From Microcaldota archaeon (GTDB taxonomy: Archaea; Micrarchaeota; Micrarchaeia; Micrarchaeales; CABMGC01), in contig JAGWGW010000001.1 in the NCBI GenBank assembly GCA_028867135.1, forward strand, positions 1-53,597: DNA of 53,597 nucleotides, read 5' to 3'. Shown in pieces: positions 23,051 through 41,159 of this stretch. Positions within the stretch are counted from its first letter, which is position 1, and each line of letters begins with the position of its first letter. Both the position numbers and the translations under genes were made by a program. The notes beneath the pieces are model-generated. The model did not search any database. It saw only the letters and a list, made by a program, of their open reading frames with translations, and was not told the DNA's origin.

Positions 23051-23190
23051 TGGGGTTGCGGGGATTTGAACCCCGACTCGCAGGTTACTTCATATTTATT
23101 TTGTAATTCCAGATCCTAATCATCGCACAGGCGCTCAATTTTTTGTAAACATCTGGAGCCTGCTGCGCTGCCAAATTACGCGACAACCCC
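23051..23190 (-). tRNA. trnW: tRNA-Trp (CCA) with a 67-nt intron
   Basis: Read on the minus strand, the acceptor stem GGGGTTG/CAACCCC, D stem GCGT/GCGC, anticodon stem GCAGG/CCTGC and T arm CGGGG-TTCAAAT-CCCCG fold fully. The anticodon loop is C-T-CCA-G-A, interrupted after G37 by an intron at 23086-23152, the canonical 37/38 position. Exons are 23153-23190 and 23051-23085, with discriminator A and no encoded CCA. Intron bases 23108-23114 (AUCUGGA in the transcript) can pair perfectly over 7 bp with UCCAGAU at the anticodon and 5' splice site. This fits an archaeal pre-tRNA-Trp cut by the splicing endonuclease and joined by RtcB, which is encoded at 38783. Confidence 0.93.
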
Positions 23191-37032: not shown

Positions 37033-38805
37033 TTGCCAGAATCTGATGAAAGGAGGAGGGCTTTCCTTTCTAATGGGTTTACATCGGCCTTGGAGCTAGA
37101 CGGCTCGATAGACTGGTTTCCCTGCCCAAGGTTCGACTCCCCCTCGATATTCTCGGCAATATTGGACAGGACAAAAGGAGGCTTCTTCTCGATAAGGCCT
37201 GAGGCAGACTACAAGCTCGCATCGCAGTACATCGGAAACAACATGATGCTGCGGAACGTCTTTGAGACCGAGAAGGGCAGGCTGGAGGTTACGGACTTTC
37301 TGCCATTGGGCGTCTGCGCGATAATAAGGATATTCAAGTCTGAGGTTCCTTTCATCGCTGAGGTCAGACCCGTCTTCCAGTATGGCATGACGAACTCTGG
37401 CATAGAGACCAGCGAGAAGGGCATAACCTTCAAGAACGGTAGTTCCAAGGAGGGCTTGGAGCTCAGCATAAAGGGCGATTATTCAATAATCGATGACGGC
37501 CTGTTCAGGATAAACGCTGGTGAAGGCTACATGTTCGCGCTTTACTCGAAGGACCTCAAATACGGGCTTTTCAGCAGGTCCGGCTCCGTATATCCGGACC
37601 CTTACGAAACGTTTGAGGCGACGCAGAAATATTGGGATGAGCAGCTGTCCTCTGCAAGGCCCGTGGGGAAGTTCAGGGATGCATACTACAGGTCGCTGGC
37701 CGTTGTCCTGGGGCTGATGTACATGCCGTCAGGGGGCATGATCGCCGCACCAAGCGCCTCGCTGCCTGAGATAGTCGGCAAATCAAGGAACTGGGATTAC
37801 AGATACGTATGGGTAAGGGATGCCGCGTATGCTGCCGAGACGCTGTCGAACGTGATGATGCTGTCAAAAGCCAGGAGGGCGCTCAGCTTTTTGATAAGCG
37901 TGATAGACCCTTCGCTTAAGAGCTTCGACCACCCTTTCTATTCGATAGACGGAACTGCGCCGCAGCCCGAGGAGACGCTGCATTGGCTGAGGGGGCACCG
38001 GGGCTCGAGGCCCGTAAGGATAGGCAACGAGGCGTTCACGCACATGCAGAATGATGTCGAGGGGGCGTTCATGAGCGGGATGCACGCCTACATAGAGAAA
38101 TCAGGAGACCTGCTATATGCGAAGGAGAACTGGTGGGCGGTAGAGGCCATAGCCAAATGGACAACAGAATCGTGGAGGCTGAAAAGCATAAGCCTTTGGG
38201 AGGAGAGGGATGTCACTGAGCATTATGTGCATACAAAGGTCATGGAATGGGTCGCGCTCGACAGAGCGGTCAAGATAGGAAGGAGGATAGGCGAGAACAA
38301 GTCCCTAGACGGATGGACTTCTGCAGCAGTGGACATAAAGGCCGAAATAATGAAGGAGGGATATTCGGGCAAGCTCAACAGCTTCACCAAGTTCTATGGG
38401 TCTGATGAGGTTGATGCGTCATTGCTCGTGCTTCCATTGTACGGATTCATAGATGCAAAGGACCCCATGTTCCTGAGCACGCTGCAGAGGATAGAGAAGA
38501 CCCTTGCGGTAGACGACGGCCTTCTGATAAGGTACAGCTCGGATTTCATGGGGAAGGTCGAGCATCCGTTCACGCTTCTCTCAACGTGGCTTGCAAGGGT
38601 CTACCTAAGGCTCGGGGACATAAAGAGGGCTGAAACGATAATTGACAGGCTTCTTTACTATTCAAACGACAATATGCTGATAGCTGAGCATATAGACCTC
38701 AAATCAAGGGAGCCCAGAGGCAACATACCGCAGCTCTTTGCGCACGTTGGATTGATAGAGGCGATAAACGAGCTGAACGACCCTACCCTTTTATTACAGC
38801 AATAG
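37033..38805 (+). CDS. GH15 glucoamylase-like glycoside hydrolase
   Basis: A 590-residue GH15 enzyme (glucoamylase/trehalase-like) in archaeal architecture: an N-terminal beta-sandwich domain starting LELDGSIDWFPCPRFDSPS, then the (alpha/alpha)6 barrel. Barrel signatures include SLPEIVGKSRNWDYRYVWVRD and the DGWTSAAVDIKAEI region; the C-terminal LKSREPRGNIPQLFAHVGLI contributes an acidic active-site residue. There is no signal peptide, so the enzyme probably works on internal oligosaccharides, glycogen or trehalose. The start is a TTG 8 bp past the previous gene, with a weak GATGGT before it. The 3' end overlaps the convergent rtcB gene by 23 bp. Confidence 0.85.
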   Translation: MPESDERRRAFLSNGFTSALELDGSIDWFPCPRFDSPSIFSAILDRTKGGFFSIRPEADYKLASQYIGNNMMLRNVFETEKGRLEVTDFLPLGVCAIIRIFKSEVPFIAEVRPVFQYGMTNSGIETSEKGITFKNGSSKEGLELSIKGDYSIIDDGLFRINAGEGYMFALYSKDLKYGLFSRSGSVYPDPYETFEATQKYWDEQLSSARPVGKFRDAYYRSLAVVLGLMYMPSGGMIAAPSASLPEIVGKSRNWDYRYVWVRDAAYAAETLSNVMMLSKARRALSFLISVIDPSLKSFDHPFYSIDGTAPQPEETLHWLRGHRGSRPVRIGNEAFTHMQNDVEGAFMSGMHAYIEKSGDLLYAKENWWAVEAIAKWTTESWRLKSISLWEERDVTEHYVHTKVMEWVALDRAVKIGRRIGENKSLDGWTSAAVDIKAEIMKEGYSGKLNSFTKFYGSDEVDASLLVLPLYGFIDAKDPMFLSTLQRIEKTLAVDDGLLIRYSSDFMGKVEHPFTLLSTWLARVYLRLGDIKRAETIIDRLLYYSNDNMLIAEHIDLKSREPRGNIPQLFAHVGLIEAINELNDPTLLLQQ

Positions 38806-40222
38806 GCACATTCCTAGAGACTATCGTCGATATTCCAGAGTTTTCCACGACCTTCACGACATCGTCGACGTCCTTGTAAGACCACTCCGCTTCTTCGCTT
38901 ACGAGCTTCCTCGTCTTTATCCTTATCTCTATGTTCTTGCTCTTGAGCGATTCGAAGGTCCTCGAAGCCGGTATCTCGCGTATTGCCTGGTGCCTTGACA
39001 TGACCCTTCCTGCGCCGTGGCATGACGAACCGAACGTCTCCTTCATCGATCCTTCTGCCCCGCATAGGACATAGCTTGACGTTCCCATGCTCCCGGGTAT
39101 CAGGACTGGTTGCCCTATGTCCCTGTAATTCTGCGGTATCTCGGTTCTGCCTTTTGCGAATGCCCTTGTCGCCCCCTTCCTGTGCACAAGGACCCTTTTC
39201 CTTTTGCCGTCGATAATGTGGTCCTCGGCCTTCGCTATGTTGTGCGACAGGTCATACAGTATGTCCATCCCCAAAGCATCCCATTTTTGGTTGAAGACAG
39301 ACTCGAAACTCTTCCTTATCGAGTTCGTTATTATCTGCCTGTTCGTGAACGCGAAGTTTACAGCTGATTTCATCGCGCAAAGGTAATCCAACGCTTCCTT
39401 GCTGCCTATCTCCGCGTAGCTCAGTTCCGGGTCGACCAGCTTGATGTCGTTTTTCCTTTGGTATTCGACGAGTATCCTGAGGTAATCGCTGCATATCTGG
39501 TGGCCGAAGCCCCTCGAGCCGGTGTGCACCATTATGACTATCTGGCCATCGAACAGCCCGAACGCCTTCGCCGTCCTTTCATCGAGTATTTTTTCTACTC
39601 TTTGCACCTCGAGGAAATGGTTCCCTGCCCCAAGCGTTCCCAGCTCATGCAAGCCTCGCGACCTTGCATCGCTGCTCACCTTTGAGATATCTGCACCGTG
39701 CATGCAGCCGTTCTCCTCTATGTTGCCCAGGTCTTTTTCGTTTCCGTAACCTTTCCTTATTATGTACTCCACACCTTCATGAGCTATCTTTTCAAGGTCG
39801 GTTTGCGTAAGGCCTATCTGGAGCTTGCTTCCCACTCCGCTTGGGACATTGCGGAACAATGCGTCTGCCAAAGGGTTTATCTTCGGCCTTACCTCTTTCT
39901 CTGTAAGGCTTGTCTTTATCAGCCTGACCCCGCAATTTATATCGAAGCCGATCGACCCGGGGGAGACTATCCCTTCGCTCGCGTCAAAAGCCATAACTCC
40001 CCCTATAGGGAACCCGTACCCTTCGTGAGCATCGGGCATCACGAGGACGTTGCCGACAAGTCCCGGCAGCGTTGCTGCGTTCGCAGCCTGCTGAAGCGTC
40101 CTGTCCTTCTTCACCTTCTCTATCAGCCTGTCGGATGAGTAGACTATGACGTCAGTATTCATTCCTGGCATGGAATTCTTGCTTATTCTGAACCTGTTTT
40201 CATCGATTTTTTCAAGTTCCAT
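38783..40222 (-). CDS. rtcB: RNA-splicing ligase RtcB
   Basis: A 479-residue tRNA ligase that joins 2',3'-cyclic phosphate or 3'-phosphate ends to 5'-OH ends with GTP and Mn2+, the final step of archaeal tRNA splicing. Metal-site features are MPDAHEGYGFPIGGV, GFDINCGVRL (Cys97), TLGAGNHFLEVQ and MVHTGSRGFGHQ; the guanylylated His lies in the C-terminal CHGAGRVMSR segment, with VHRKGATRAFAKG before it. No intein is present, unlike in many archaeal RtcB genes. Its substrates are present in the window: tRNA-Trp with an intron, and possibly tRNA-Leu. Confidence 0.95.
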   Translation of the reverse strand: MELEKIDENRFRISKNSMPGMNTDVIVYSSDRLIEKVKKDRTLQQAANAATLPGLVGNVLVMPDAHEGYGFPIGGVMAFDASEGIVSPGSIGFDINCGVRLIKTSLTEKEVRPKINPLADALFRNVPSGVGSKLQIGLTQTDLEKIAHEGVEYIIRKGYGNEKDLGNIEENGCMHGADISKVSSDARSRGLHELGTLGAGNHFLEVQRVEKILDERTAKAFGLFDGQIVIMVHTGSRGFGHQICSDYLRILVEYQRKNDIKLVDPELSYAEIGSKEALDYLCAMKSAVNFAFTNRQIITNSIRKSFESVFNQKWDALGMDILYDLSHNIAKAEDHIIDGKRKRVLVHRKGATRAFAKGRTEIPQNYRDIGQPVLIPGSMGTSSYVLCGAEGSMKETFGSSCHGAGRVMSRHQAIREIPASRTFESLKSKNIEIRIKTRKLVSEEAEWSYKDVDDVVKVVENSGISTIVSRNVPIAVIKG

Positions 40223-40303: not shown

Positions 40304-40315
40304 ACTTATAAATAA
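40304..40315 (+). promoter_or_regulatory. TATA box for tRNA-Leu
   Basis: ACTTATAAATAA is centred about 28 bp upstream of the tRNA 5' end at 40338. A second AT-rich stretch (GCTATATATATGAG, near 40260) may serve the divergent rtcB gene. Confidence 0.5.
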
Positions 40316-40337: not shown

Positions 40338-40435
40338 GCAGGGATGGCGGAGCCTGGTCAAACGCGGCAGACTCAAGATCTGTTGGCTTAGGCCTACGGG
40401 AGTTCAAAAAATATGAACACATCTCTCTCCCTGCA
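40338..40435 (+). tRNA. trnL: tRNA-Leu (CAA) with an apparent 13-nt T-loop intron
   Basis: Acceptor GCAGGGA/TCCCTGC, D stem GCG/CGC, anticodon stem GCAGA/TCTGT with loop CT-CAA-GA, a long variable arm with a GGC/GCC stem and discriminator A identify a class II tRNA-Leu. The T stem GGGAG/CTCTC (40398-40402, 40423-40427) encloses 20 nt, not 7. Removing 13 nt within 40406-40420 restores TTCAAAT, the T-loop of the tRNA-Trp here, and brings the gene to 85 nt, normal for tRNA-Leu. The inserted region can pair GTTC with GAAC, forming the 4-bp helix of a splicing motif. Noncanonical T-loop introns are known in some archaea. No CCA is encoded. Confidence 0.85.
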
Positions 40436-40466: not shown

Positions 40467-41159
40467 GTGAAGAGGAAGTCAAAAACAATAAGAAGGAAGG
40501 CCGCAAACAGGCCTAAGAGGCCTGGGAAGATGCGCGAGAAGGTATTGTTTGACATACCACACTACCCGCAGACCGAGGAATTCACAAGCTCAGCAGCATG
40601 CGCGATGATGGTCCTCAAGTACCTTAATCCAAACTTCAGGCTCAAGAAGGAGCAGGAGTATGATATTTGGCAGGAGGCTGTCAATGGAAGCGTGTGGCAC
40701 GGCTCGAAGTACGGGCTTGCGTACGCGCTAGCGAAGAGAGGCGCAAAGGCCAAGATAATCAGCAACACCAAGGACGAGGGATACGACAGGAAGCTTGCAG
40801 TGTACGAGAACGTGAACCTTGATACGCTCACGGCTTCATACAACGAGATAAAGCAGAAGTCGCAGGACATGGAGATAAGCGAGGATTACGGTACAGCGTC
40901 GATCAACTCCGTCAGGAAGACGCTCTCCGGCAACCAGATACCGATAGTGCTCATAGATGCAAACGTAATAAATCCTTACCTTGAATCATCGCCGCACTGG
41001 GTCGTTGTAAAGGGCTACGACAAGGATGCGTTCTACATCAATGACCCTTATTCTGACAGCACTGTGACGCTAGACTCTGATGCATTCAAGTCCGCTCTTG
41101 GATACGACAACGACTTCCACATGATAGTCATAGGGTCAAAGCCCAAACAGAAGAAATAG
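40467..41159 (+). CDS. peptidase C39-like protein without the nucleophilic cysteine
   Basis: A 230-residue protein with the papain-like C39 family layout: PHYPQTEEFTSSAACAMMVL, an EYDIWQEA segment, a GSKYGLAYALAKRGAKAKII strand-helix, PHWVVVKGYD with His, and FYINDPYSD with Asp. In active members the residue after FT is Cys; here it is Ser41, so peptidase activity is doubtful unless Cys45 substitutes. The N-terminus is very basic (KRKSKTIRRKAANRPKRPGK), suggesting RNA or membrane binding. GTG 40467 is preceded by AGGCGATGC. Function unknown. Confidence 0.7.
   Translation: MKRKSKTIRRKAANRPKRPGKMREKVLFDIPHYPQTEEFTSSAACAMMVLKYLNPNFRLKKEQEYDIWQEAVNGSVWHGSKYGLAYALAKRGAKAKIISNTKDEGYDRKLAVYENVNLDTLTASYNEIKQKSQDMEISEDYGTASINSVRKTLSGNQIPIVLIDANVINPYLESSPHWVVVKGYDKDAFYINDPYSDSTVTLDSDAFKSALGYDNDFHMIVIGSKPKQKK

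Follow-up and report, generated by a model that had tools for sequence, protein, structure and literature searches.

Can a tRNA gene whose T stem closes a loop of 20 nt still give rise to a canonical tRNA and, if so, by which route? This question is raised by a tRNA-Leu(CAA) gene in the window, i.e. the whole stretch of 53,597 nucleotides analysed here, which corresponds to positions 1-53597 of contig C31 in a source genome of 961 kb (33 contigs, 94% complete). Based on our analysis, the gene very probably encodes a functional tRNA-Leu(CAA) with a 13-nt noncanonical intron at position 58/59, which would be cut out of a relaxed bulge-helix-loop (BHL) motif by an epsilon-2 EndA, with ligation by RtcB. 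Cleavage, the exact cut positions and ligation are predictions made from the sequence and the enzyme genes.

The tRNA-Leu(CAA) gene

The gene was read at 40338-40435 (+) as GCAGGGA TG GCG...CGC G GCAGA CTCAAGA TCTGT ... GGGAG TTCAAAAAATATGAACACAT CTCTC TCCCTGC A, with the acceptor stem GCAGGGA/TCCCTGC and A73 (Table 1). The initial annotation had described a class II tRNA-Leu(CAA) at these coordinates, and correctly so, as the match to the Rfam tRNA model RF00005 spans exactly 40338-40435 (42.2 bits, E=1.2e-5, above the gathering cut-off). Likewise, the T stem reported to close a 20-nt loop can be read directly as GGGAG (40398-40402) and CTCTC (40423-40427) around TTCAAAAAATATGAACACAT, the T-loop of the unspliced tRNA, and removal of AAAATATGAACAC leaves a TTCAAAT loop in a canonical tRNA-Leu of 85 nt, confirming the effect of the 13-nt deletion that had been proposed. 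ARAGORN gave no call for a tRNA-Leu(CAA) at 40338-40435 (+), as expected because the T-loop is disrupted, a warning that tRNAs with such T-loop introns are overlooked by a common gene finder.

Table 1 Features of the tRNA-Leu(CAA) locus, with positions in the window and the basis of each assignment.
Feature	Position	Strand	Basis
tRNA-splicing ligase gene rtcB (479 aa), divergent from the tRNA at a distance of 115 bp	38783..40222	-	PF01139, 549 bits
TATA-like element TTATAAATA, ~32-24 nt upstream of the tRNA	40306..40314	+	sequence; consensus resemblance only
Class II tRNA-Leu(CAA) gene with T-loop intron	40338..40435	+	Rfam RF00005; cloverleaf from sequence
5' exon, end ...GGGAG-TTCAA, positions 1-58	40338..40407	+	next base A/T in relatives, hence outside the mature loop
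Anticodon CAA	40374..40376	+	sequence
GTTC (53-56), exon strand of the four-pair central helix	40402..40405	+	precursor MFE fold; pairs kept in all variants
5' splice-site bulge AA^A (predicted)	40406..40408	+	rule of cutting after the second bulge nucleotide; fits comparative boundaries
13-nt intron AAAATATGAACAC	40408..40420	+	missing from intronless orthologues; 10-21 nt in relatives
GAAC, intron strand of the central helix	40415..40418	+	variants all keep four pairs with GTTC
3' splice-site bulge AC^A (predicted)	40419..40421	+	same rule; three unpaired bases in MFE fold
3' exon AT-CTCTC-TCCCTGC-A, positions 59-73	40421..40435	+	AT invariant in 116 distinct loops; preceding base A/C
C39-like peptidase-family protein, synteny marker	40467..41159	+	PF11814, 95.5 bits; at intron-bearing and intronless loci

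Comparison across the order

A gene search returned matches in 70 of the 79 genomes of the family and in 138 of the 147 genomes of the order, and T-loop inserts of 10-21 nt, most commonly 13 nt, were present in orthologues from 128 genomes of the order. In total, 130 insert-bearing records were parsed from the fetched loci, including the window's own gene (L282) and two copies from one genome, hence the 128 genomes. Most orthologues in the order are ~85-95% identical to the window gene, insert included. In a genome of the same genus, an insert of different sequence (TTCAAAAACTTTGAACAAAT) occupies this position, and the difference lies in its middle. The comparison gives good support to the reading that the 13-nt insert is an intron that is shared by nearly the whole order and has been cleanly lost in several lineages. 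Archaeal tRNA introns range from 11 to 129 nt with medians mostly of 12-25 nt (PMC4090602), and a length of 13 nt is thus ordinary, contrary to the earlier suggestion that this would be one of the shorter ones. One draft genome (G003) carries a tRNA-Leu(CAA) intron of 10 nt, TATTGAATAA (L181), which is one base below the 11-nt minimum of PMC4090602.

The four-pair GTTC/GAAC helix which had been noted as possible would join 40402-40405 with 40415-40418. Across 116 distinct loops, the intron strand facing the invariant GTTC reads GAAC in 84, GGAC in 12, GAGC in 11, GAAT in 8 and GGGC in 1, and the four pairs with GTTC, either Watson-Crick or G-U, are kept in every one of the 116. Counted as sequences and not as independent events, the changes in the intron strand amount to 33, all of them transitions (A-to-G or C-to-T) that preserve the pair, with no transversions, and the four columns just 5' of this strand have 46 transitions and 180 transversions. 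The intron-strand G opposite C56 does not change in any of the 116 distinct loops. This comparative evidence supports the noncanonical intron with a relaxed splicing motif put forward in the initial annotation. Further, the data form a comparative series of a single noncanonical tRNA intron across ~130 species with several precise losses, and such series can reveal which bases of a relaxed motif matter and how introns persist or vanish.

Position of the splice site

In the source genome alone, the same product is obtained whether the exons end and resume as TTCAA and AT (58/59) or as TTCAAA and T (59/60), and a single sequence can therefore not decide between them; the tRNA-Arg intron of the same genome, moreover, appears to sit at 59/60. 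Splicing at 59/60 or at 57/58 instead of 58/59 is nevertheless very unlikely when the relatives are considered. In the 116 distinct loops, TTCAA is followed by A or T (T in 31), and the final AT is preceded by A or, in five loops including that of the source genome, by C. Because the first intron base is thus A/T, the last A/C and the following AT invariant, the boundary falls at 58/59. Splicing at 59/60 would yield TTCAATT in 31 of the 116 loops and splicing at 57/58 would yield TTCACAT in the five, source genome included, whereas TTCAAAT throughout would result only from 58/59, which also agrees with cutting behind the second bulge base at each splice site.

Splicing motif and precursor fold

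With the boundary at 58/59, a four-pair helix would form in the precursor between G53-T54-T55-C56 and a GAAC located towards the 3' end of the intron. The helix would have AA^A as its 5' flank and AC^A as its 3' flank and would constitute a relaxed bulge-helix-loop substrate. Epsilon-2 EndA would cut after the second nucleotide on each side, releasing the 13-nt intron, and RtcB would join the exons to TTCAAAT. In the MFE fold of the precursor, GGGA-GTTC is paired with GAAC-(ACA)-TCTC, and the relaxed BHL motif (a bulge, a central helix and a loop on the other side) is found there as the helix, the 3-nt ACA bulge and the loop. The motif is not a strict BHB, because there is no intron-internal helix; the intron is too short for one and forms a bulge-helix-loop only. 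Three features of archaeal EndA-type introns are found, namely restoration of a canonical tRNA, a four-pair helix between exon and intron, and genes encoding EndA and RtcB.

Since the central helix takes G53, which pairs with C61 in the mature tRNA, the precursor T stem is probably shifted by two, so that GGGA (49-52) would pair with TCTC (60-63) and refold after splicing, a step that we consider only moderately supported. The T stem of the predicted spliced tRNA appears in the MFE fold for 115 of 123 distinct sequences, and the shifted T stem in that of only 39 of 123 distinct precursors. Fold energies, which were expected to separate the shifted from the mature T stem, were nearly equal and gave no decision, with a median difference for shifted versus mature of -0.5 kcal/mol, or +1.0 when the loop of the mature stem is allowed to pair. 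G53 faces C or T in every one of the 116 loops, and position 50 is a purine in all 130 intron-bearing records, as the shifted stem requires. In the order, Leu(GAG) genes are without a T-loop intron and mostly have GTGAG, i.e. T50, and T50 also occurs in two of the four intronless Leu(CAA) lineages within the order (g11 and G082). The evidence from position 50 and from the partner of G53 is no more than suggestive of a shift in T-stem register. A tentative proposal, to which we would give somewhat less than an even chance, is that the T arm of the splicing substrate folds in a way incompatible with its mature form, with G53 in the intron helix, 49-52 paired with 60-63 and refolding only once the intron is removed. 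If the shifted fold were true, the T-stem sequence would be under constraint from a T-loop intron throughout the order.

Splicing enzymes

The initial annotation had expected T-loop splicing to depend on an endonuclease of broad specificity, and the source genome does encode an enzyme of such a type. The EndA (L040, 385 aa from the listed start, contig C30) aligns over its full length to the ARMAN-2 structure 4fz2 with 496 bits, and conserves the catalytic residues Y236, H251 and K282 as well as Y160 and K161 of the specificity loop (ASL). Among solved structures its nearest match is that of ARMAN-2, and among genomes the nearest are Micrarchaeota records, which makes the source organism a relative of Ca. 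Micrarchaeum. By its sequence the enzyme is an epsilon-2 (ARMAN-type) EndA, a single three-unit protomer. In vitro, the epsilon-2 enzyme of ARMAN-2 cleaves both BHB and BHL pre-tRNAs, and alanine at Y160 or K161 leaves no detectable cleavage (PMC12397907).

Of the 30 same-family loci fetched with flanks, some of which are cut by contig ends, 26 have the ligase gene rtcB head-to-head with the tRNA. In 15 flanked loci of the order's second family, rtcB was not found beside the tRNA. In three loci of genus g11 (L283, L284 and L285), ~1.5 kb interrupts rtcB after about residue 97; the interruption is possibly an intein. The RtcB of the window itself is uninterrupted, and its top match is the NCBIfam model for intein-containing RtcB, with a score below the cut-off of that model.

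Intronless orthologues and intron loss

The insert is exactly missing in eight genomes of the order, five of them from genus g11 in addition to G110, G091 and G082. Outside the order, four f15 genomes have an intact 85-nt tRNA that is 93-94% identical and without the intron, and the loops of these twelve intronless genes read TTCAAAT, or TTCGAAT once. The g11 member G015 retains the intron, and g41 (the genus of G110) and g35 (the genus of G091) also include intron-bearing species. As each of these three genera also contains intron-bearing species, at least three losses are implied, with G082 as a possible fourth, and from this distribution inside genera we infer loss rather than repeated gain in the intronless genomes. 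The same C39-like gene lies downstream at the intronless loci of G016, G019, G020, G110 and G091, and at G022 the beginning of this gene can be seen; G017 shows a similar lysine-rich start downstream of the tRNA, and the C39-like gene was not found at the G082 locus. In the intronless tRNA-Leu(CAA) genes of g11 (L184-L188), T50 and T64 are mismatched within the T stem (GTGAG/CTCTC).

We also considered whether the intron tracks the presence of an epsilon-2 type EndA. This seems not to be the case, as families outside the order have open frames of ~385-420 aa with an EndA domain, similar in length to the enzyme described above, and yet f15 is intronless. The type of EndA may permit the intron without explaining its distribution.

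Retention, decay or error

The mature tRNA could also, without any splicing, keep the enlarged 20-nt T-loop, and the tRNA model does score the unspliced gene above its gathering cut-off. We consider this very unlikely, since the insert is free to vary in length (10-21 nt) and in its central sequence but keeps the splice-type helix and the AT end, precise intronless orthologues exist, and the genes for the splicing enzymes are present. Moreover, T54-A58 and the D-loop contacts form the tRNA elbow, and an enlarged T-loop would disturb them.

Still less probable is a decayed copy (pseudogene) of tRNA-Leu(CAA). The gene was overlooked by standard software, but every stem is intact, most orthologues in the order match it at ~85-95% identity with the insert included, and it is the sole Leu(CAA) found in the genome. 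The initial annotation had named an intact second Leu(CAA) as grounds for such decay; none was found in a whole-genome tRNA scan (ARAGORN and by eye) of the 94%-complete genome, and a BLAST search of the source genome with the gene matched only the gene itself. A completeness of 94% leaves some room for a second copy. A sequencing or assembly error, also raised earlier and conceivable in a 33-contig draft, has a negligible chance, as homologous inserts of differing sequence occur in independent assemblies of many species, including that of the same genus, and in 128 genomes altogether. The preferred reading therefore remains that of a functional tRNA-Leu(CAA) with a spliced 58/59 intron.

Other introns in the source genome

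Several other tRNAs of the source genome also have introns, and at least two more of these, in tRNA-Arg(TCT) and tRNA-Ser(GGA), are T-loop introns; the statement in the initial annotation that T-loop introns are rare is thus untrue for this lineage. The tRNA-Arg(TCT) gene (C31:76646-76733; L035, L294) has a T-loop intron apparently at 59/60 with a TTCA/TGAA helix, and among relatives (L295-L323) a similar insert is found in most of the fetched Arg(TCT/CCT) genes, with four lacking it (L303, L304, L313 and L320). The tRNA-Ser(GGA) gene (C33:21061-21180; L037) carries ~21 inserted nt in its T-loop and probably has another intron in the anticodon loop. Judged from the Arg genes of the relatives, T-loop introns seem to occur regularly in the order. 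In addition, ARAGORN misses a tRNA-Trp(CCA) gene at 23051-23190 (-) of the window, which measures 140 nt with its long insert; archaeal tRNA-Trp introns often contain box C/D RNA.

Comparison with known systems

Sugahara et al. reportedly treated noncanonical T-loop introns of archaeal tRNAs in 2008, and Fujishima is said to have described ARMAN tRNA introns in 2011. The Leu(CAA) T-loop intron may already be catalogued for ARMAN-2. Archaeal noncanonical T-loop introns have been documented at 56/57, 59/60 and other positions, mainly in Crenarchaeota (PMC4090602). The Leu intron resembles these introns in its T-loop site, relaxed splicing motif and similar length range, but differs in belonging to Micrarchaeota, in its 58/59 position, in its BHL without an internal helix and in its order-wide occurrence. 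The ARMAN-2 EndA system has an enzyme of the same type, in which the catalytic and ASL residues are conserved, and cleaves a BHL in vitro; however, its assayed substrates, pre-tRNA-Ile UAU (BHB) and pre-tRNA-Cys GCA (BHL) (PMC12397907), are both other tRNAs and not the Leu T-loop precursor.

More distant likenesses exist as well. The tRNA-Ile(UAU) of the red alga Cyanidioschyzon merolae has a T-loop intron (PMC9602550) with a BHB-type motif, but it is eukaryotic and the intron is one of three in the gene, and homology is not expected. Permuted tRNAs joined at 59/60 in Thermofilum pendens and C. merolae (PMC3218864) likewise have a T-loop junction handled by splicing enzymes, whereas the Leu(CAA) gene has normal exon order and a short cis intron. 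T-loop introns and EndA of broad specificity are already known, and the Leu(CAA) 58/59 intron adds to this known class.
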